Assembly (NCBI GenBank): GCA_944390795.1
Contig: CALXRI010000009.1
Location: 1-64,000 of the forward strand
Source of the DNA: an uncultured Victivallales bacterium
Lineage (GTDB): Bacteria; Verrucomicrobiota; Lentisphaeria; Victivallales; UBA1829
Direction of reading: 5' to 3'
Length of the DNA stretch: 64,000 nucleotides
The notes beneath the pieces were generated by a model that was not told where the DNA came from, ran no database searches, and saw nothing but the letters and a program-made list of their open reading frames with translations. This document shows positions 24,045-38,243 of the stretch, in pieces; position 1 is the stretch's first letter; each line of letters opens with the position of its first letter. The translations under genes were made by a program, and so were the position numbers.

Positions 24045-26330
24045 ATGAAAAATCCGGCGGATCAGCAGGAAAACGGCACGGGGAACAAAACCATCCGTCT
24101 GGAAACGCCTGTGGAAAAAACCCGGCGCACCATCCGGGTGACAACACCGTTCCAGACGCGCATTTTCCCCAAGAAACGCGATCTTGACGATCTGCTCGTC
24201 TCGCGGAAGCTCTCCATTTACACTTCGACCGCACTGGACACCTCGCCGGAACTGGCGGCGCCGCTTTCCGAACTGGACGGCGAATACACCATTCTTGAAA
24301 CCTTTGCGGAAGGCGGACAGGCGACGATCTCCGTGGCGCGCGACCGGAACCTGGAACGCATCGTCGCTGTGAAGTCCCTGAAAAAAGAACTGAAAAACCG
24401 GAAACGAATCGAGCAGTCCTTCATCACCGAGGCGAAAGTCACCGCCCAGCTGGACCATCCCGCGATCATCCCCATCTACGGACTGAACCGGGATGAGGAA
24501 GACGGCATCCATCTGGTCATGAAGCTGGTGAATGGAAAAACGCTCCGCGAATACCTCCGGAACGTGGTTCTGAATTACCGTATGAAGGGAATCGGCGCAT
24601 TCGACGAGGAGGCCGCGCTCGGCAAACGGCTCGAAATTTTTCTCCATGTCTGCGACGCCATCGCCTATGCGCATCACAGGGACATCATCCATCGCGACCT
24701 GAAACCCGAAAACATCATGCTCGGCGAATATATGGAAGTCTACGTGATGGACTGGGGAATCGCAAAGAAGATCCATCTCCCGCCGGATGCCCCGGTCCGG
24801 AAGGCCGACATCTCCGGAACACCGCGCTATTTCTCCCCGGAGGCGCTGCGCGGGGAGGAGTGCGACGAAAGATCCGACATCTTCACGCTCGGACTGATTC
24901 TGCAGGAAATCGTGACGCTCCAGTTCGCCGTGGCGGGAGGAGAGAACCATGAGGTCATGCGGAATATCGTCAACGGCCGTCTTGCACCGATCCGGCACCT
25001 GTTCGGCAGGAAAATAGATTCCGGGCTCAAGGCAATCATCCGCAAGGCGCTCGCAGTCAATCCGGACGACCGCTACGCCTCCGTCACGGAACTATCCGAA
25101 GACATCCGGCGCCACCGGAACGGACTGTCCATCTCCGCGCGTCCCGACGACATCTTCATGAAAAGCGCCCGCTTCGCCGCCAGGCATCTCCGCTCCATGC
25201 TGATGATCCTGCTGGTCTTCATGCTCGGCGCCGTTTCACTTGGAGCCTACTCCGTCTACGACCGCCTCCGAATCGCCAATGAAATGAGCCTGCGGAGTTC
25301 CGCCATGAACGCCGTCTACGGAAAAACCGCCGCAGCCGCCGCGGCATTCGACATGACCGCGCTTCATATGCAGGATCTTCTCTGTGCCGTGTCACAGGCG
25401 GCAGGCCATCTGCTCGGCGAAAGAACAGGAAGGGCGCAGTCTCATTCCGACGCGTTCTATCCCTACCGTCCCGGAGGAGGAAAACCCGATGAACTGCCGC
25501 CGGATCTGGTCTATTCCGCTTTTCACAAACGGAGAACCACCTTTTCACATGGGGTCTACAAAATCGCACCGGGCGCGGATCTCACGGAAGTGCGGAAGTT
25601 TCTCTCGTGCATGACGCCGATTCTGTCAAATATGCTTCATGCCGTTCTCGAAAGCCGTCCCGGCATCCATCTGACGCCGCAGAATCTGGAAGAGCAGAAG
25701 AAGGAATGGCTGGAACATGGGCTGCCCGTCAAAGCGGTATTCGCGGCATCAAAGCACGGTGTCACAATGCTCTTTCCCTGGAGAGACACCTACACGGAAG
25801 GCTATGATCCGCGCAACCGCCCCTGGTACCGGCGCGCGCTGCAGAATCCGGGTCCGGTCTGGGGACGGCCTTATGTGGATGAGGATTCCGCCTCGGGGCT
25901 TTCGATTCCCTGTTCCATGCAGATCCGCGACATTCAGGGAAATTTTCACGGGGTCGCAGGTCTGGATCTCTCGTTCAACAAACTCACAGGCAATCTGCTG
26001 TCCTCGGGCAACACAGGCGCCTTTGTTCTGGAAAAGGCCGTCATGAATCCGGAAGGCCGGGTTGTTCTGTCCGCCTCCTCGGAATATTTCAACCGGACAT
26101 TCGACCCGGAAGGACATGAGGATCCGGAACTTGCCCTGCCGCTGTTCCGCGATGAGACCGTCCGCAGCAGGATCCTCGGAGAGCAACAGGGATTCGGACT
26201 CTTTGTAAATCCGGAGAACGGCAGGGAGGTGCTCTATTCCTTCGCCCGGCTGAAAATCTTCAAGCTCTACTACGTGGAGGTCATAGACTTTTCCCGTCTG
26301 CTGCGGCAGTCCGCCGAAAAAAAGCAGTGA
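24045..26330 (+). CDS. Transmembrane Ser/Thr protein kinase with C-terminal Cache-like sensor
   Basis: A 761-residue membrane kinase. Residues about 80-360 are a Hanks-type kinase domain: glycine loop FAEGGQATIS (87-96), K110 in VAVKSL, H216-R-D218 in HRDLKPEN, D236 in DWG (instead of DFG, as in many bacterial kinases) and GTPRYFSPEAL. A basic stretch leads into one membrane helix (about 385-404). Residues about 405-761 look like an extracytoplasmic double-Cache/PDC domain, with DPRNRPWYRRAL and a following VAGLDLSFNKL segment typical of it. So the kinase is inside and the sensor outside, at the C-terminus. An N-terminal tail of 75 residues is rich in Thr and may be phosphorylated. Confidence 0.88.
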   Translation: MKNPADQQENGTGNKTIRLETPVEKTRRTIRVTTPFQTRIFPKKRDLDDLLVSRKLSIYTSTALDTSPELAAPLSELDGEYTILETFAEGGQATISVARDRNLERIVAVKSLKKELKNRKRIEQSFITEAKVTAQLDHPAIIPIYGLNRDEEDGIHLVMKLVNGKTLREYLRNVVLNYRMKGIGAFDEEAALGKRLEIFLHVCDAIAYAHHRDIIHRDLKPENIMLGEYMEVYVMDWGIAKKIHLPPDAPVRKADISGTPRYFSPEALRGEECDERSDIFTLGLILQEIVTLQFAVAGGENHEVMRNIVNGRLAPIRHLFGRKIDSGLKAIIRKALAVNPDDRYASVTELSEDIRRHRNGLSISARPDDIFMKSARFAARHLRSMLMILLVFMLGAVSLGAYSVYDRLRIANEMSLRSSAMNAVYGKTAAAAAAFDMTALHMQDLLCAVSQAAGHLLGERTGRAQSHSDAFYPYRPGGGKPDELPPDLVYSAFHKRRTTFSHGVYKIAPGADLTEVRKFLSCMTPILSNMLHAVLESRPGIHLTPQNLEEQKKEWLEHGLPVKAVFAASKHGVTMLFPWRDTYTEGYDPRNRPWYRRALQNPGPVWGRPYVDEDSASGLSIPCSMQIRDIQGNFHGVAGLDLSFNKLTGNLLSSGNTGAFVLEKAVMNPEGRVVLSASSEYFNRTFDPEGHEDPELALPLFRDETVRSRILGEQQGFGLFVNPENGREVLYSFARLKIFKLYYVEVIDFSRLLRQSAEKKQ

Positions 26331-28790: not shown

Positions 28791-29900
28791 TTATTCCGCG
28801 ACAAGCCCTGGGACAGTCTGCCGGTAATAGGACCTCGCCATCTTCTTCAGGAAGTCGATATCCAGCTTCCAGGCAAGCGCCTCCGCGCCGAGCACCGCTT
28901 TGACCTGCGTGTTGTCAAATGTGATCTGGGAAGCGAAGTAGGGCATCAGGTCTTCGATCATTTTCTGAACCATCTTCTCTTCCTTCGTCTGATTCTCGAC
29001 ATGATCGAGCACCTGAAGTCCATCGGCCTGCAGAACAGCGGAAACAGCGATATTGATATCGTCCGTGGAAACCGGGCTTTCTCCGGTGATATGATAGCAC
29101 TTGTTTTCCACCGGAAGGGTGAAAATCGTCGAAATCGCTTTCTGGACATAATCAATCGGAACAAAGTAAATCTTGTCCGATTTTTCGGATTCCAGACGGA
29201 GACTGAGTTTGATCGGAGCATTCTGAGGAATGTGGTTCCGGATGCAGTGATGACGTTTCACGCTGCCGAGAAACTCCAGAATACGATAAAAAGCAAGCGG
29301 CTTCCGAATCAGTCCGTCGGAAAGTCTGCCGACAATGATGGACGGCCGGTAGATCGTGTAGGGAATGCCGCACTGCTGAACCAGTTTTTCCGCTTCAAAC
29401 TTGCTTCTCTCATAGGAATTGACCCAGTCCGTGGCGGGAAGCGCTCCCTCCAGAACCACGCCGTTGGTCTTTCCCGCGACATAAGCGGTACTGACATAGT
29501 GAAGCGCCTTGACTTTCAGCTGACGGGCAAGAGCGAGGGCATTTTTGGTGCCTTCCAGATTGGTCGCATAGGTTTTTCCTTCCGGGTCCTTTCCGAGATT
29601 CACGTCGGCCGCGCAATGGAAAAACACATCATAGGGGCCCTTCCGCACGATTTCCTCGACAGGAAAGTTCTTCACATCGCCGCTGATGACTTCGATCCGT
29701 TCCAGCATGTTCCCGACCAGCTCGGGAGTCCCGTCGAAAGCACACTGATCTTCAATAACCTGCTTGACGCGTTCCTGGGCAGTCTGACCGCGGCCGCTTC
29801 TGCAGACCGCAACAATCCGAATATCATCCCTGTTGCGAAGTGTCGCGGTCACAAAAGACGCACCCACCAGTCCGGTGATACCTGTCAGTAATAATTTCAA
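28791..29900 (-). CDS. Extended SDR, thioester-reductase-like NAD-dependent epimerase/dehydratase
   Basis: A 369-residue extended short-chain dehydrogenase. The nucleotide motif is TGITGLVGASF at residues 6-16, followed by FFHCAADVNL, and the catalytic Tyr-Lys pair in VSTAYVAGK. The segment YERSKFEAEKLVQ and YRPSIIVG place it near the male-sterility/thioester-reductase group, which reduces fatty acyl thioesters, or near NAD-dependent sugar epimerases. The start codon is TTG, supported by AGGAG eight bases upstream. Alone on its strand apart from the zinc-ribbon gene downstream. Which substrate it uses is not determined. Confidence 0.8.
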   Translation of the reverse strand: MKLLLTGITGLVGASFVTATLRNRDDIRIVAVCRSGRGQTAQERVKQVIEDQCAFDGTPELVGNMLERIEVISGDVKNFPVEEIVRKGPYDVFFHCAADVNLGKDPEGKTYATNLEGTKNALALARQLKVKALHYVSTAYVAGKTNGVVLEGALPATDWVNSYERSKFEAEKLVQQCGIPYTIYRPSIIVGRLSDGLIRKPLAFYRILEFLGSVKRHHCIRNHIPQNAPIKLSLRLESEKSDKIYFVPIDYVQKAISTIFTLPVENKCYHITGESPVSTDDINIAVSAVLQADGLQVLDHVENQTKEEKMVQKMIEDLMPYFASQITFDNTQVKAVLGAEALAWKLDIDFLKKMARSYYRQTVPGLVAE

Positions 29901-30182
29901 GACTCAACTCCTGTTCATGCATTAACAATTCAAAATCCCGACAGACTGTTTCAAAAACAAAACAGTGTATGTAACTAATCAATATAGCATATCCGGAACG
30001 ATTTGCAACAACGGATCCGTTTTTTTTCCGGATAAACAGAAGGATTTGGATCTGCAACGGACAAAAAGCATTCCCGGAATGAACGCGTCTCCGGAAATTG
30101 CCCGGAAAAACGGGAGGAGGAAGCGTCCGCCAGTTTTTCTCCCGTATTCTGTGCACGCCGTTTCAAGTATTTGCGGGAACAG

Positions 30183-32447
30183 TTATTTCCGGCATTCCGG
30201 GTAGTTCATCCGGAGGTCCAGCATTCCGATTCTGGTGCAGTCATCCAGCGCAGCCGTCAAATCCGCCGGATTGTCATTTCCGGGGAAGTCCTTTGGAAAG
30301 CCGTTGGGTGCAATCTGATTGCAGACGAGTCCCGGCGGGAGAACCAGGCGGACGTCGTAATAAAACGGGCAGACCAGATTGAGCACGCTTTCATTTCCCT
30401 GATTCAGAACAATCGAACGGGAGGTCTTCGCATGCGCCTTATGGAACTGCGCAGCAAGCAGATTGAGGGAACCTTTGTAATCCTCGAAGGAAATCAGTTT
30501 GTGTGCAATGTCACCGCTCTTTTTTTCCGCCTGATTCATCGCACGTGCGAACTTCGGCAGGCCCACTGTAACCCGCCCCACCGGATAATCCCTTCCTCCG
30601 CTCAGGGAGAGGAGAATGTCATATCCCTGTTCCAGGTAGAAATCCGGCAGCACGAAGGAAGCGTTCTTGCGAACCTGAAGCGGGTGATCCGCATGCGTCG
30701 CAAGCCGGACCATTCCGCCGAGAAATCCTTTTCCGGTCACACCGTCCACCGTGATGGACCCCTCATGGCAGACGCCGCCGAGCACGATGCCGTCTCCGGC
30801 GTTTTCATAGCGCTGGTTGCCTTCCAGATATTGCAGGTTGACCGCGTCATGTTCCCGGAGATTCCGGAACAGGATTCCCTGCCGCTCCGCAAAACCGGGC
30901 GGCTGGTATTTCCCGTAGACAAAGACGCCGTTGTAGCGAATGGAGGTTTCGCGCTCTCCGCCTTCCTGCAGAATGTTCGCGCCTTTTCCGCCCTTCCAGG
31001 GCGCGGCGTGGTTTGCCAGGGTCTCCCGGCTGCAGACCCGGAAATTTTCCAGAACAATATTGCGCGGATTCCGGACCACCAGCGCATGCTCCTGCTCCTT
31101 TCCGTTCCAGACGATGACGGAATGCACCCCGGAACCGCCGATGAAGTAATCGGAGCCTTCAATGACAATGCTTTCAGACAACAGGTAATTCCCCGTCGGG
31201 AAATAGGCGATTGCATCCTTTCCATGCGCCCGGGCGGCCGCAATAACGCGGCGAACGGCTTCCGTGTCATCGCTTCTTCCGTCGCCTTTCGCACCGAAAT
31301 CCCGCCGGACGTCAAAGACTTTTCCCGGAATGCGTGAGGTTTTTACAAGGAAGTTCGCTGTTTCCGGAAGATTGATCGCGGGCAGTTTCCCTGCGGGAAT
31401 CTCCCATGCCTTTTTCCGCCCGGCGGGAAGCGCACGCTTGAAGAGAGCGGCATCCCCGTGTCCGTTTCCGGAAAGCGCCATGAAAGGCGTCTCCTGCCGG
31501 AATATGAATTTTCCCGTTCCTCCGGGAAGAAACGTGTTGTTGAAGGCCAGAAGCGAGCCGCTCCATTGAATTGCGCCCTCTCCGGAGCTCCAGGAGGAGA
31601 CGGTGCAGTTCTCCATGGTCAGAGGGGAGACTCCGCCTTCGCCGCGGAGAAATGCGCCGGAACCGGACGAGACGCAGCGACGGATGCTGCATCCGTGTTC
31701 CGGCCTCTCCGCGATAATGTCCACGCTATTTTTCTCAAAACGGGAATCCAGCATGTAGAAATTGCCCCGCCGGCAGTAAATGCCGCTGGAGCGGTTGTTG
31801 AGGAACAGACATCCCTTGAAGGCGAAATCGTAATCGTTGAAGCTGGTGAATTCCACGCCGGTCCCGGCATTGTCGAAGATGCAGTTCTCGAAGGCCGGCT
31901 CGGAATCGGAACGCAGATCCATCCGGTTGTTCTCGCAGAGAATGCCGCAGGCGCGGAAATTGCGGAAGGCCAGAAAAGAGTACCGGACCTGCGTTTCGAA
32001 TTTGCATTCCTGATCGTTCCACATGCCGATTGAAGCTTTTCCTTTTCCGTCGAACACGATTCCCGTATATCTGGCGAGGCTCAAACCCGAATCGCGCACC
32101 ATCCGTCCGCCCATCGGACCGTTCCATACCAGACGGGTGGCTTCCCCGTGTCCGATGACCGATACCCCGGTCAGGCGTTTTTCATTCCGCCAGTTCAAGG
32201 TTTCCGAAATCAGATACTCTCCCGGCGGCAGATAAATCGTGACGCCGTTCTCCAGTCCGGAAAAGGCCTTCCGGAGAGCGGCCGTGTCATCCGTTCTTCC
32301 ATCGCCTTTCGCACCGAAATCCCGGACATTGATCCAGTCCGACCTTTGTTCCCAGTTCAATACGGGAAGTTCCCGGAACGTGTCCGCCCGTCCCGCCGCG
32401 CTGAACAGCAGCGCAAGGAAAAGCGCCGCGTATTTGCCGATCGTCAT
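30183..32447 (-). CDS. Secreted double beta-helix enzyme (pectate-lyase-3 modules, GH55-like layout)
   Basis: A 754-residue exported protein. Residues 1-21 are a signal peptide ending near AAGRAD. Two Pectate_lyase_3 modules begin with the same motif, VRDFGAKGDGRTDDTAAL (about 40) and RRDFGAKGDGRSDDTEAV (about 378), each followed by right-handed beta-helix repeats (DNAGTGVEF, NNRSSGIYCRRGNF). Two such modules in one chain of this size is the layout of GH55 exo-beta-1,3-glucanases, although other beta-helix lyases and epimerases share the module. It is last in the operon led by the GntR-GH38 gene, 15 bases after the pseudopilin gene. Catalytic residues were not identified. Confidence 0.78.
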   Translation of the reverse strand: MTIGKYAALFLALLFSAAGRADTFRELPVLNWEQRSDWINVRDFGAKGDGRTDDTAALRKAFSGLENGVTIYLPPGEYLISETLNWRNEKRLTGVSVIGHGEATRLVWNGPMGGRMVRDSGLSLARYTGIVFDGKGKASIGMWNDQECKFETQVRYSFLAFRNFRACGILCENNRMDLRSDSEPAFENCIFDNAGTGVEFTSFNDYDFAFKGCLFLNNRSSGIYCRRGNFYMLDSRFEKNSVDIIAERPEHGCSIRRCVSSGSGAFLRGEGGVSPLTMENCTVSSWSSGEGAIQWSGSLLAFNNTFLPGGTGKFIFRQETPFMALSGNGHGDAALFKRALPAGRKKAWEIPAGKLPAINLPETANFLVKTSRIPGKVFDVRRDFGAKGDGRSDDTEAVRRVIAAARAHGKDAIAYFPTGNYLLSESIVIEGSDYFIGGSGVHSVIVWNGKEQEHALVVRNPRNIVLENFRVCSRETLANHAAPWKGGKGANILQEGGERETSIRYNGVFVYGKYQPPGFAERQGILFRNLREHDAVNLQYLEGNQRYENAGDGIVLGGVCHEGSITVDGVTGKGFLGGMVRLATHADHPLQVRKNASFVLPDFYLEQGYDILLSLSGGRDYPVGRVTVGLPKFARAMNQAEKKSGDIAHKLISFEDYKGSLNLLAAQFHKAHAKTSRSIVLNQGNESVLNLVCPFYYDVRLVLPPGLVCNQIAPNGFPKDFPGNDNPADLTAALDDCTRIGMLDLRMNYPECRK

Positions 32448-32462: not shown

Positions 32463-33245
32463 TTACTGACTCGGATCCGCGAGCCATTTTTCCTTGTTGT
32501 TATTGTAATCCGCTCCGAATCTGGAGTAGGGCCTGCATTCGATGTGTCCGTCCGCGAAGGAGAAATTGGCGCTGATCCCGGGATGCCGGAAACGGGCCAT
32601 TTCACTGCTGTGATCAAAACGCCCAAATCCGTTTCCTATCAGAATTGGATCTGCAAAAGCATAAAGAAGTGCAGGGTGTTTGAAGCGGGCAATCGGCATC
32701 CCCTCGTACTGCATGGTATAGCGCTGCGAGGAGACGCCTCCGGAAGACCGATAATTGACCGCATATCCGAAATCGCGAACGCCGTCGCACCCCCAGATTC
32801 TGACGCTTTTCTGTGTAATCATGCGTGACTGCCCCCGGTCATAATAATAGCGCAACTGATAAAACACGGAGAGCGTTTTCCTGTCCCCGTTGCTGTTGGA
32901 GGCGTGATAACCGTCGTTGGTCAGATAGTCGTTCAGAAGCTCATACCAGTTGTAAGGCGTGTCCGGACCGGTGGAATAGAAGAACAGATCCTTCACCCGG
33001 TAAGGCGGCGTGAAATCCCTGCTGTCCGAATAGTAAAGCGCGGCAAGGGTGTTGATCTGCTTCAGATTGGACGTGCAGCTGATCCGTTTCGCAACCTCCC
33101 GCGCCTTGCCGAGTGCAGGCAGCAGAAGCGCCGCCAGAACGGCGATGATCGCAATCACAACCAGGAGTTCAACCAATGTAAATTTGAATCCGTCGGATCT
33201 GCAGGGAGAAAGGCCGTTCCGGTGCGCCGAAAACTGTTTCCGCAT
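32463..33245 (-). CDS. Type II secretion-like pseudopilin with prepilin leader
   Basis: A 260-residue protein with a type IV prepilin N-terminus: the cleavage/methylation motif [19 protein letters not shown] near residues 22-40 (Glu at +5), then a globular part opening [18 protein letters not shown] and closing with the FADGHIECR ending typical of the Planctomycete/Lentisphaera group (H-x9-DG type). Start 33245 is favoured because GGAG lies six bases upstream; ATG codons also occur two and four codons earlier. These proteins are abundant in Victivallis and may display or secrete polysaccharide-binding fibres. It sits inside the glycosidase operon, 38 bases after the LamG-like gene. Confidence 0.85.
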
Positions 33246-33283: not shown

Positions 33284-34087
33284 TCAGAATCCGGGAAAAA
33301 CAGGTGGAATCTGATTGTAAATGACAAATCTGCCGACACGTCTCTCCAAGCCCCCGAGACCGGGCGCGGAAATCGTCGTGAAGGAATGAAAAACTGGCCT
33401 GCACTGGAATCCCCCTGCCAGCTTTTCCGGGGGAAGTTCGGCCGTCATGCGCAGGAGCGGTTTCGCGGAGGCATATGCAATCTCCGCGCCGTTCTCCGCG
33501 GCATAAAGCGAAATGACAAGCTTCTTCTCCTGCGTTGTTTCGAAGAGAAGGGCGAAATGGTAAAGGACATCCGGCCGCAGAGCATAATTGACGGATTTCC
33601 GCAGCATCTTCGTCATTCTTCCGTTTTCCTTGAAAACCGGATCGGAACAGAGGAGATCCAGCCAGAGTTCGCTGCTCCGGTTCTTTTTGTTTCCGGAATT
33701 GTAAAGCGCCAGACGCATCCCGTCTTTCGGCGAACCGAAGTCAATGACCCGGAAAACTCCGATGGGAGAGTTCGCGTCGATCGCACGGTTGTAACGGACA
33801 AAGAAATCGATTGCTCCATTAATGGTTCCGTTCCGCACCATGCCGTCGGGAGAATTGCCCGGAGAAAGGAAACGGATCCGAAAACCGCCGCGACCCGTAT
33901 TTTCATTCGTGATCCGGGTCAGAAACGCATTGTTTTCCACAATGTTTTCCACGGCCCCCGATTTGATGACCGCCACGGTTCCGCCGACCGCATTGATCTG
34001 TCCATTCCGGAAATCCAGGCGGAAAATCTCATTCCCGTGCATCAGAGCGCAGAAAAAGACCGTAATGAACATCAGCAGAGTTTTCAT
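33284..34087 (-). CDS. Secreted LamG/concanavalin-like protein
   Basis: A 267-residue exported protein. The signal peptide is residues 1-19 (MKTLLMFITVFFCALMHGN, cut near GN-E). The mature part is beta-rich with alternating aromatic and polar residues (FRLDFRNGQ, GAIDFFVRYNRAI, YHFALLFETTQEKKLVISLYA), the pattern of a LamG/concanavalin-like jelly roll that binds or cleaves glycans. No clear catalytic Glu motif is visible. GGAGGG precedes the ATG. It is second in the operon, 21 bases after the GntR-GH38 gene. Family membership is a fold guess only. Confidence 0.6.
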   Translation of the reverse strand: MKTLLMFITVFFCALMHGNEIFRLDFRNGQINAVGGTVAVIKSGAVENIVENNAFLTRITNENTGRGGFRIRFLSPGNSPDGMVRNGTINGAIDFFVRYNRAIDANSPIGVFRVIDFGSPKDGMRLALYNSGNKKNRSSELWLDLLCSDPVFKENGRMTKMLRKSVNYALRPDVLYHFALLFETTQEKKLVISLYAAENGAEIAYASAKPLLRMTAELPPEKLAGGFQCRPVFHSFTTISAPGLGGLERRVGRFVIYNQIPPVFPGF

Positions 34088-34108: not shown

Positions 34109-36760
34109 TTATGAGATGGTGCAGTAAAAAGTCCGGATTTCAAAGGGGCGGAATGCGATCCTCGTTTCAGAAACGCGGACGGGGTCCGCACCGGAAAAAC
34201 CGGTTTCGAAAACGGCGGACACAAAATCCGCTTTCCGCAGCGACGCGGCGGTTGCGCTCCCGGCGGATTCATAGAAACGCACCAGAAAACCGTCCCGGAA
34301 TCTGTGCATGCCGGACAACACAAGATTGGGTGCGTCCCAGTCCAGCAGCGGTCCTTCGCGCATGACAGGGGCCGTGACACGCGGAGGCCGGTTGAGAATC
34401 TCCCCCAGTTCCACGGCTTTTCCCATCTCCAGCGGAGAGTGGGCGCGGAATGCGAATTCATATTCATGATGCCCGTTTTCATAACTGCCTTCCTGCGGAA
34501 CCATGCATCCGTCCTTGATGTCCGTTCCGCTCCGCAGGAGACTGACGAGAATCTCTCCGTTGACAAGCTGGTGTCCCGGCGTCCCCGTATTGGCGAGCGT
34601 CAGTCCCTTCCGGTGATCGCTGTAGTTCACCCAGTTGAGGGCGGGCCAGTCGCCGCGCGCCGAAACATAGTCGGCCTCCGACTCCAGTTTCCTCATCAGG
34701 CTCTCATTCTCCTGCCGCACCTCGAAATAGGGTTTTCGGATCACGCAGCCGAACGGAACCGCGTAGGTTTCAGACGCATACGCCATCTTCAGATTCAGCG
34801 GGAAACGGATGCTGATCTTCGTATTGCATCCCGTCCAGTCCAGCGAAAGCTTCAGCAGAAAATAGTCCAAACATTTCGGGAAAAGATACTCTTTGCGGAA
34901 CGCCAGGGCGCCGAATCCCGGCCAGTGGGAGCCGAGGTTTCCGGCTTCGGGCTGTTTCGGCAGCACGGTTCCCTCCGTAACGGCCTTGAAAAAAATCTCT
35001 CCCTCGGTAATGTCCACGACCTTTTCGCGCTGAAATTCCCGTCCCTGATAATAGTCCATGAATTTTTCCGTCCACATGGTCCCGTAATCGGAACGGATCA
35101 GAATTTCTCCGAAATTTTCCCGCGCGAAAACATTTTCCCCGTGCAGACTGCGGATCACGGGAAAGGGCGTGGAAAAATCAGCTTCATAACAATCCGTCCG
35201 GAAACGGGGAGTGCACGGCTTCACCGGGGACGGTTTCCGGTGCGCGGCATGGAAATTCCTCGCTCCGCATGCGGGAAGTTCCGCCGTGAAATAACAGTTT
35301 CCTCCCTCCTCCTGTGCGGGAACGCCTTCCGGCGCGACGGTTCCGGATACCAGGCGAAGCCCGCTGGAACCGCCGAAACTGCAGACGCTGAAATCCGCTC
35401 CACGGGGAATGTCGAACGCCCGTTCCGCCGTCCGGATGACACGATCCAGTTTCCGCATGATTTCCCGGTTCGCCGCATCGGTATGGCAGCCGCACGCCGC
35501 ATCATGGAACTGTGCGGAAATCAGATCGTTCCAGAGCGTTTCCCGGTCTTCCCCTCCGCCGGAAAGCACATCCGTGATCTCGGCGGAAATCAGCAGATTT
35601 TCCGCCTTGCGGAGCGCCTGTTTTACGGAAATGCGCGTCGTATAGCACCCTGAAAAGGTCGGATTGAACTCCCCGTGAAACACGGGAAGAGAATCCTCCG
35701 CAGTCTGCTGAAAATAATCGAGGGTGCTTCCGAATTCCACAAGACGTCCGGGCATCCGGTTGACCGTGTCAACGATCCAGAACAAATCCTCTTCAATGCG
35801 CCCCTCCTCTGTGACATAATGAACCAGCGCGCGGCCTTCCAGATACTTCAGCGAAGCGACGCTCCGTGCAAGCTGATTCTCATAATCCCGGAGAACCGGC
35901 ACGTTCCCTGCGTATCCCAGATGCGTGATCTCGGCTGTGCTGTGCGCGACGGTGATTCCCGTTCCGTCCGGACCGCGCCAGAAAAACGGCCCGTTGGACG
36001 GAATGGAGCGGGGACAGTTCGCCATCCGTCCCGGCAGCAGATAACGGTAGCCGCATTTGACGAGGATCTGGGGAAGCTGCGCGCACATGCCGAAGGCGTC
36101 TGTCATGCAGGCGATCTGCGGAACTTCTCCGAAGGCTTCCCGGTAAAAGTTCCTCCCGAGAAGCAGGTTGCGGACGATGGACTCCCCGGAAACGAGATTC
36201 AGATCGGGAATGCAGATCCCGCCGAAATATTCAAAGCGTCCCTCCTGCCGGAGTTTCTGAAAACGGGAAAGATCCTCCGGATGCTTCCGGAGATGCACAC
36301 GCAGAATTTCCGCCTGTTCGATTCCGAAATGGAACCGGCTGTATTTCTCCGCAAGGCGCAGGAGATTCCGAATCTGCTCCTCGCGTATCGTCTCATACTC
36401 CTCATAGGAATGGCGCCAGACAAGGTCGGAATGGTGCAGGGCGGAGAGATAGATGCGCCCTTCAGTATCTTTTTGTATTTTATTTATCTTTTCATCCCGG
36501 GAAAGATTCGTCCGGACATAAAAGCCGCTTGCGCCGCGGCATTCGACAAAACCGTTGTCCATCAATTCCCGCATGGCGTTCTGAATCACGGAAAGGCTGA
36601 CGTCAAAATGAGCGGACATGTCGCGGACGGTCGCAAGTCTCGCACCAGGCTCAAGAATGCCGCGCCGGATCTTTTCCGTAATTTCATTGACAACCTGCTG
36701 CCGCTTTGTCGGCGAATTGGTCAGACTCATGACGACTCCCGGAGTTGTTTCTTCTTTCAT
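34109..36760 (-). CDS. GntR DNA-binding domain fused to GH38 alpha-mannosidase
   Basis: An 883-residue single chain. Residues about 16-84 are a GntR winged helix (KRQQVVNEITEKIRRGILEPG, split at the usual turn, then DMSAHFDVSLSVIQNAMRELMDNGF). From residue 100 on it is a GH38 glycosidase: H110 and D112 in HHSDLVW, D186 region IPDLNL, nucleophile D221 in MTDAFGMCAQLP, and H419 in QFHDAACG. The four zinc residues of GH38 (His, Asp, Asp, His) are thus present. No signal peptide, so it acts in the cytoplasm. The joint lies in one frame with no stop. ATG 36760 has AAGGGAAGGA next to it; an ATG 11 codons later is also possible. It heads the operon and has a consensus promoter. Confidence 0.88.
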   Translation of the reverse strand: MKEETTPGVVMSLTNSPTKRQQVVNEITEKIRRGILEPGARLATVRDMSAHFDVSLSVIQNAMRELMDNGFVECRGASGFYVRTNLSRDEKINKIQKDTEGRIYLSALHHSDLVWRHSYEEYETIREEQIRNLLRLAEKYSRFHFGIEQAEILRVHLRKHPEDLSRFQKLRQEGRFEYFGGICIPDLNLVSGESIVRNLLLGRNFYREAFGEVPQIACMTDAFGMCAQLPQILVKCGYRYLLPGRMANCPRSIPSNGPFFWRGPDGTGITVAHSTAEITHLGYAGNVPVLRDYENQLARSVASLKYLEGRALVHYVTEEGRIEEDLFWIVDTVNRMPGRLVEFGSTLDYFQQTAEDSLPVFHGEFNPTFSGCYTTRISVKQALRKAENLLISAEITDVLSGGGEDRETLWNDLISAQFHDAACGCHTDAANREIMRKLDRVIRTAERAFDIPRGADFSVCSFGGSSGLRLVSGTVAPEGVPAQEEGGNCYFTAELPACGARNFHAAHRKPSPVKPCTPRFRTDCYEADFSTPFPVIRSLHGENVFARENFGEILIRSDYGTMWTEKFMDYYQGREFQREKVVDITEGEIFFKAVTEGTVLPKQPEAGNLGSHWPGFGALAFRKEYLFPKCLDYFLLKLSLDWTGCNTKISIRFPLNLKMAYASETYAVPFGCVIRKPYFEVRQENESLMRKLESEADYVSARGDWPALNWVNYSDHRKGLTLANTGTPGHQLVNGEILVSLLRSGTDIKDGCMVPQEGSYENGHHEYEFAFRAHSPLEMGKAVELGEILNRPPRVTAPVMREGPLLDWDAPNLVLSGMHRFRDGFLVRFYESAGSATAASLRKADFVSAVFETGFSGADPVRVSETRIAFRPFEIRTFYCTIS

Positions 36761-36772
36761 TCCTTCCCTTTT

Positions 36773-36801
36773 ATTATAAACGGAAAAAGCGCTTCTGTCA
36801 A
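36773..36801 (-). promoter_or_regulatory. Consensus promoter of the GntR-GH38 operon with spacer palindrome
   Basis: On the minus strand TTGACA (36796-36801), exactly 17 bases, TATAAT (36773-36778). The spacer holds the palindrome AAGCGCTT (36787-36794). A protein bound there would compete with RNA polymerase. The GntR domain of the gene just downstream is the natural candidate. Confidence 0.75.
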
Positions 36802-36816
36802 TGCGGGAACCTTTAA

Positions 36817-36836
36817 AAATACAAAAAAATACAAAA
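36817..36836. repeat. Tandem 10-base repeat upstream of the GntR-GH38 promoter
   Basis: AAATACAAAA occurs twice in tandem (36817-36826 and 36827-36836), one helical turn apart, 16 bases upstream of the -35. It may be an A-tract bend, an UP-like element or a binding site. Confidence 0.45.
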
Positions 36837-36929
36837 GAAATGCGGATCCCTTCCAAGAAGATGAACTGATGCCGACAGACGCACAGCGCTTTTTCTTTGA
36901 CGCTCGGGGAATCCAAAAAGGAGTCTGAC

Positions 36930-38243
36930 ATGGGACTGAAGTTCAATCCGAAACAGCGCGAGGGCTGGAAACTGCTGATTTCCCCTGAAAAAACGCGGAT
37001 CCTGTTTGACGGCGGATCCCGCTCCGGGAAAACCGCCCTGATCGCGGAATACCTGATCCGCCGCGCCCTGCAGTATCCGGGCTCGCGGCAGCTCGCGGCA
37101 CGGAAATGCCGCGCACACGTGAAGACATCGCTCTGGAACGACACGCTCAAATCTTATGTTTCGCGCCATCTGCCGCACGGCTTCTGCCGTTTTCAGGAAA
37201 GCGAACTTGCGATTCTGCTTCCCAACGGCTCGTCCATTCTCGCGGGCGGGCTGGACGATGCGGAACGGACGGAGAAAATCCTCGGAAACGAGTACATCAC
37301 GGTCTTCATCAACGAAGCCACGCAAATCTCCTTCCAGACCATGCAGATGGCATTGACACGCCTCGCCCAGCGCGTCCGGGACCGGAAAGGACGCATTGCC
37401 GTGCCGAAGCTGATCCTGGACTGCAACCCGCGCGGACCGCGCCACTGGCTCCATGCGGCAGGCGTCCGGCATGTCGATCCGGAAACGGGCGAGACGCTTC
37501 CCGACGCCGCGCGATGGGCACGCCTGAACTGGTCGGCGTATGACAACATGGAGAATCTGCCGCGGGAGTATCTCTATGCGCTGGAATCCCTTCCGGAAGT
37601 CATGCGCGAACGCATGCTCAACGGCGTCTGGCGCGGCAACGAGGGCGCGGTCTATTCCGAATTCGATGAGGATGTCCACGTCGTGGAACCGTTTGAAATC
37701 CCCGGATCCTGGAGGCGCCTCCGCAGCATCGACTTCGGCTATACGAACCCGTTCGTCTGTCTCTGGGGCGCGCTGGACTCCGATGGAAGACTCTACATCT
37801 ACCGCGAGCATTACAAGGCGGGCGTCCGCACCGCGGAACACGCCGAAACAATTCTGAAACTCTCGGGCGACGAACGCTACTGCGCCACCGTCGCGGACCA
37901 TGACGCCGCCGAACGCGCCGAACTGGAGTCGCGCGGAATCCGCACCGAAGCGGCAGTCAAAAACGTCGCGGGCGGAATCCAGAGCGTCAAAAACCGTCTG
38001 GCCGTCTGCGCGGACGATCGTCCGCGCCTGTATTTCTTCCGGACGCTCCGCAACCTTCTTTCCGAAATTTACGACTACCGCTGGCTTCCCGCGCGCGACG
38101 GCGGAAATGCCAGGGAGGAACCGCTCAAGCAGAACGATCACACGATGGACGCGCTGCGCTACATGGTCGTCGCCGCGGAACATATGGAAAAACACAGTTT
38201 CAGAAGCGCCAGCATCCCGGTAACCCCGCACAGCAGCCGGTAA
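36930..38243 (+). CDS. Orphan phage-type terminase large subunit
   Basis: A 437-residue TerL-like protein. The ATPase half has Walker A GGSRSGKT (K34) and Walker B YITVFINEA (E129). The RNase H-like nuclease half has D268 in SIDFGYTN, D323/D325 in VADHD and D403/D407 in QNDHTMDALRY, so both activities look intact. The start at 36930 is set by AAAGGAG seven bases upstream. No small terminase, portal, capsid, tail or integrase gene lies within the flanking 30 kb, and both neighbours are ordinary chromosomal genes. It may be a remnant, or a captured motor with a cellular role; cannot be told here. Confidence 0.88.
   Translation: MGLKFNPKQREGWKLLISPEKTRILFDGGSRSGKTALIAEYLIRRALQYPGSRQLAARKCRAHVKTSLWNDTLKSYVSRHLPHGFCRFQESELAILLPNGSSILAGGLDDAERTEKILGNEYITVFINEATQISFQTMQMALTRLAQRVRDRKGRIAVPKLILDCNPRGPRHWLHAAGVRHVDPETGETLPDAARWARLNWSAYDNMENLPREYLYALESLPEVMRERMLNGVWRGNEGAVYSEFDEDVHVVEPFEIPGSWRRLRSIDFGYTNPFVCLWGALDSDGRLYIYREHYKAGVRTAEHAETILKLSGDERYCATVADHDAAERAELESRGIRTEAAVKNVAGGIQSVKNRLAVCADDRPRLYFFRTLRNLLSEIYDYRWLPARDGGNAREEPLKQNDHTMDALRYMVVAAEHMEKHSFRSASIPVTPHSSR

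Follow-up and report, generated by a model that had tools for sequence, protein, structure and literature searches.

The window analysed here is a 64-kb stretch of DNA (64,000 nucleotides) that forms part of contig 9 of a genome of 3.44 Mb in 66 contigs. On its minus strand, one open frame codes for a GntR winged-helix domain followed by a full GH38 region:

34109-36730, minus strand: GntR-GH38 fusion coding sequence, open frame of 873 aa from the ATG at 36730
36515-36703, minus strand: GntR winged-helix domain, aa 10-72; PF00392, 44-49 bits; dN/dS of 0.077 against the orthologue
36461-36514, minus strand: flexible linker, aa 73-90; low pLDDT in the structural model; dN/dS of 1.35 against the orthologue
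34127-36460, minus strand: GH38 region, aa 91-868, with catalytic, middle, C and C2 domains (PF01074, PF09261, PF07748 and PF17677); fold match 2wyh

A single uninterrupted frame with a GntR domain and a full GH38 enzyme had been reported in the preliminary description, and the Pfam domain search recovered all of these domains in the open frame. The five matches exceed their cut-offs: GntR PF00392 with 44.1 bits (cut-off 27) and four GH38-related models, namely GH38N PF01074 (115 bits), Alpha-mann_mid PF09261 (48.5), GH38C PF07748 (26) and GH38C2 PF17677 (24.6). The translation start, formerly placed at the ATG at 36760, had to be moved to 36730, because in a 91%-identical orthologue the loss of a single base between these two ATGs puts the upstream one out of frame, so that only ATG 36730 is conserved. 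Comparison of the two sequences thus makes ATG 36730 the likely start. The four zinc residues first numbered H110, D112, D221 and H419, which are invariant in 26/26 relatives, accordingly become H100, D102, D211 and H409. No signal peptide is evident in the fusion protein, which is therefore read as cytoplasmic.

The same architecture was found in other genomes. A scan of 84,980 species genomes, queried with two peptide patterns of this GH38 subfamily, gave 32 loci, and 21 complete GntR-GH38 proteins were identified in about 18 genomes, all assigned to the Lentisphaeria, with 38-91% identity; two are encoded in the present genome, and a few cut or broken ones come in addition to the 21. A search for relatives returned full-length homologues in six other genomes besides the second copy in this one. 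In the set of 26 relatives, GH38N was detected in all 26 and GntR in 19, which is the number of fused proteins in the set. Between close orthologues, dN/dS amounts to 0.02-0.09 for the GntR part and 0.08-0.17 for the GH38 part; for the linker it reaches 0.24-1.35 wherever a value could be calculated. Selection thus maintains the two domains together in a single chain: purifying selection is strong on GntR and GH38, and the linker drifts.

These data bear on the reading that there is no functional fusion at all, the frame being explained by a separate start within the GH38 part, an assembly chimera or a degenerate GntR domain. In its favour, the GntR part of one relative (loci L050 and L072) is broken by several frame changes (8800-9000 in L072, same place in L050) in front of an intact GH38 frame, which is possibly a loss of the regulator part. 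Against it, the fusion occurs in many independent assemblies, the GntR part is under the selection given above, and a consensus promoter precedes the proposed start; this reading is largely refuted and very improbable. Between residues 84 and 105 (preliminary numbering), where a stop or a frameshift would have separated the two parts, the sequence contains neither, and about 20 further proteins encoded in independent assemblies show the same intact fusion. An assembly or frameshift artefact is ruled out by these fused relatives together with selection on the GntR part, and a vestigial GntR domain is ruled out for the fusion protein of the window by its dN/dS. The GntR-GH38 fusion is thus established as real.

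Unfused members of this GH38 subfamily come from Clostridia (L066, L073), from Armatimonadota (L080, L083, L084), from a few genomes of the Lentisphaeria or the same order (L074, L093) and from one bacterium that is unclassified (L076). To account for the fused state, the tree requires three changes or more, for example a single gain plus two losses. L074 has its unfused GH38 gene in divergent orientation to a gene that matches GntR weakly. An additional, separate GH38 gene is located directly upstream of the fused gene in an orthologous pair of loci (L063 5467-7953 and L082 6408-8894), and in the relative L057 the gene beside a fused gene codes for a GntR protein with a LacI-like sugar-binding domain. 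The second fusion protein of the present genome is encoded on contig 11 at about 29363-32035 (L012 6864-9536) from a GTG start; it is about 45% identical to that of the window and its GntR match is above the cut-off.

The active-site positions of the GH38 part are the following:

36425-36433, minus strand: zinc ligands H100 and D102, invariant in 26/26
36098-36100, minus strand: D211, catalytic nucleophile and zinc ligand, invariant in 26/26; by its motif we take it to be the equivalent of D204 of Golgi mannosidase II
35807-35809, minus strand: E308, candidate acid/base at the end of strand 301-307, invariant in 26/26
35504-35506, minus strand: zinc ligand H409, invariant in 26/26

Besides these ligands, W105, R235, D410 and E308 are invariant in the fused and unfused proteins of the 26-protein set. 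The AlphaFold2 model of the fusion protein has a mean pLDDT of 89, and its best structural match is the S. pyogenes GH38 alpha-mannosidase 2wyh (Z 34.1, rmsd 2.9 over 734 residues), closely followed by Ams1 and Golgi mannosidase II. At the sequence level, the solved enzymes most similar to the fusion protein are Ams1 and alpha-mannosidases of bacteria. The whole-enzyme fold (Z 29-34), the zinc ligands and the nucleophile are shared with the enzymes of S. pyogenes (2wyh) and E. faecalis (3lvt/5kbp) and with Ams1 (6lz1). The solved alpha-mannosidases differ from the fusion protein in that they have no DNA-binding domain, are only about 18% identical and carry Asp as acid/base instead of the candidate Glu. 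In characterised GH38 enzymes, the acid/base is an Asp; in the model, E308 appears to take this place throughout the subfamily, the equivalence being judged by eye from the end of the strand. The conserved residues and the predicted fold together indicate that the GH38 part is probably an active alpha-mannosidase. Alternatively, the domain could bind mannoside as a pure sensor whose cleavage activity has been lost. The Glu at the presumed acid/base position is compatible with such a loss, for which the MocR proteins, with an aminotransferase fold kept mainly for sensing, offer a precedent (PMC5320631). Yet none of the four zinc ligands or the other active-site residues varies, and the Glu occurs in unfused relatives too, one of which (L066) lies amid genes resembling those of amino-sugar catabolism, as assigned by inspection of their sequences; a pure sensor is therefore regarded as unlikely.

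Upstream of the fusion gene, a promoter and a repeated element were recognised:

36773-36801, minus strand: sigma-70 promoter TTGACA-17-TATAAT, 12/12 matches, kept in the orthologue
36815-36833, minus strand: putative operator, direct repeat TGTATTTTTTTGTATTTTT with a 10-bp period, about 14 bp upstream of the -35 box

The repeat falls within 36760-36850, the stretch that had been proposed as gel-shift target. When the promoters of the fused genes were compared, short sequences emerged that recur in direct orientation every 10-11 bp (TGTAT-N5/6-TGTAT). In its strict form, ATAC[AG]-N5/6-ATAC[AG] or the complement of this, the pattern matches 7/19 independent fused-gene promoters versus 5/2298 control blocks, and a looser form 11/19 versus 9/2298, with a mean of 0.04 (strict) and 0.19 (looser) matching promoters in dinucleotide shuffles, figures which are post hoc since the pattern was derived from the same promoters. 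Two further related loci, which were examined later and are closely related to each other, have TGTATTATTTTGTAT where the repeat would be expected. Within the genome, a search allowing up to two mismatches gave three occurrences of the window's repeat, and the sole perfect one is 36815-36833. No such repeat was present upstream of eight ordinary GntR genes of this genome, whose starts were guessed automatically; the genome holds 51 GntR-domain matches, mostly in frames of about 340-400 aa. The TGTAT/ATACA repeats in the promoters of fused genes are a new finding of this analysis.

Other candidate elements were discarded or set aside. An inverted-repeat operator, seen by eye as an 11-bp GAAAAAGCGCT / AGCGCTTTTTC pair around the promoter, was dropped because it is absent from the orthologue. 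Similar repeats within L058, L060 and L081 encode a conserved EYKKIR motif and were rejected as operators. At 36464-36482, the linker codons of the fusion gene contain a copy of the repeat with two mismatches, either a second site or chance; a reversed control pattern gives about as many chance matches, and this intragenic site is thus kept only as a lead.

The repeat type varies with the recognition helix of the GntR domain. TGTAT/ATACA repeats were found in 12/15 groups with a Gln-type helix (SxSV[IV]Q), the other three having no clear repeat, and in 0/4 groups of the Tyr and His types (Fisher p 0.009, with groups counted by hand and a post hoc pattern). The contig-11 paralogue has a Tyr-type helix, and its promoter carries three copies of AAGAAACAA at 10-bp steps between the -10 box and the start codon, an arrangement unique in the genome. 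The promoters of the window's fusion gene and of the paralogue each have their own unique repeat. On these grounds, the GntR part very probably binds the putative operator repeats and autoregulates its own operon.

The fusion gene is followed on the same strand by three closely spaced genes, with gaps of 21, 38 and 15 bases along the operon:

33284-34087, minus strand: second operon gene, separated from the fusion gene by 21 bp; 267 aa without a Pfam match, N-terminus resembling a signal peptide
32463-33245, minus strand: third operon gene, DUF1559 / N-methyl pseudopilin-like (PF07596)
30183-32447, minus strand: fourth operon gene, secreted pectate-lyase / rhamnogalacturonase-like beta-helix protein of 754 aa (PF12708, 113.9 bits)

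In many relatives, genes for pseudopilin-like and large secreted proteins also lie downstream of the fused gene; some of these downstream genes give DUF4838, GH42-like or carbohydrate-binding matches and others no Pfam match. The proposal that the fusion gene heads an operon for glycan degradation is borne out insofar as secreted proteins follow it, some of them glycan-active, but these partners do not point to mannose. The link of the operon to glycan use is good; what connects it with mannose specifically is the GH38 domain.

Autoregulation could also serve to set the level of the enzyme, the GntR part controlling dosage while its DNA binding is indifferent to any ligand. This would agree with the fact that the gene's own promoter is the only convincing target in this genome and with a linker that is flexible and unconserved. 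However, GntR proteins usually respond to a ligand at their C-terminal domain, and the gene heads an operon with other proteins too, so that dosage control without sensing is considered improbable. The best explanation, in which we have moderate confidence, is a self-regulating one-component GntR regulator with a catalytically intact alpha-mannosidase as its sensor, in other words a trigger enzyme made by fusion. There are strong grounds to expect that its GntR domain binds the direct repeats spaced by 10 bp (TGTAT in one orientation, ATACA in the reverse) in the promoter that drives its own operon. The GH38 domain, judging by its conserved residues and fold, should bind zinc and an imported alpha-mannoside, which it would very probably cleave. 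An occupied active site might then act through the linker, which is flexible, to move the pair of GntR domains and so change the transcription of the downstream secreted glycan-active proteins. Because such a sensor would destroy its own ligand, the signal would reset once the glycan has been consumed. That mannoside controls the DNA binding of the fusion protein is rated as somewhat more likely than not.

The sign of this control may differ among members, as the position of the repeat differs between branches. The repeat of the window, like that of several relatives, starts upstream of a near-consensus promoter, 32-34 bases before its -35 box; in the branch of the window, it precedes the probable transcription start by about 60 bp. 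In the clade formed by L067, L068, L069, L071 and L075, it is found near the start codon in the opposite orientation, downstream of the -10 box wherever the promoter is clear. A position some 60 bp upstream of the start is typical of activators, and one between the -10 box and the start codon of repressors.

Several known systems resemble parts of this design. FarR of E. coli is the same protein as MngR, the regulator of mngAB, and MngB is a GH38 enzyme; regulator and GH38 enzyme, which are neighbours in E. coli, thus appear here as one protein. FarR is a GntR regulator with the direct-repeat operator TGTATTAWTT (PMC4494728), which is close to the repeats found here and to the TGTATTATTTTGTAT of the two loci examined later. 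Unlike the fusion protein, it has a sensor of the HutC type (chorismate-lyase fold), and the GH38 enzyme forms no part of it. The C-terminal domain is what divides GntR regulators into subfamilies (FadR, HutC, MocR, YtrA, AraR and PlmA), and GH38 is absent from these six types (PMC4494728). AraR-type regulators likewise join GntR to a sugar-recognising domain, but theirs is a LacI-like, non-enzymatic one. The entire C-terminal part of the fusion protein is GH38, with no Pfam match to a UTRA or periplasmic-binding-protein domain, the marks of HutC and AraR. MocR proteins, which often have direct-repeat operators and often repress themselves (PMC5320631), are the closest known design: MocR, GabR and PdxR share with the fusion protein a GntR winged helix joined to a large C-terminal domain of enzyme fold, direct repeats and frequent autoregulation (PMC5320631). 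Their C-terminal domain is however a fold-type-I aminotransferase and not a GH38, so that the fusion protein does not belong to the MocR subfamily, and the sequence and spacing of the repeats differ. Like the trigger enzymes BirA and PutA, which have their own DNA-binding domain, the fusion protein would be an enzyme that binds DNA and controls its own pathway; no glycosidase example of this kind was found in the literature searched. Literature on GntR with glycoside hydrolase, alpha-mannosidase or Lentisphaerae gave no description of the GntR-GH38 pairing either, in agreement with the preliminary description.

If ligand control is real, a glycosidase would itself be the transcription factor of its operon and would constitute a natural mannoside-responsive switch. 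As the repeats are specific, the model is open to testing with short DNA and the purified protein. Thanks to its unfused sister proteins, the family would also be a clear case in which to study the recruitment of an enzyme as sensor. More tentatively, the fused proteins may form a family of glycosidase-sensor transcription factors in which the substrate sets the state of the promoter, hydrolysis ends the signal and the operator diversifies alongside the recognition helix.

Elsewhere in the window, a PBSX-type phage terminase large subunit gene (36930-38243, plus strand; PF04466, PF03237) is divergent from the fusion gene; no other phage gene was recognised among the scanned neighbours, and L056 has the same terminase gene at the orthologous place. 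A Ser/Thr protein kinase with a Cache sensor domain is encoded at 24045-26330 on the plus strand.
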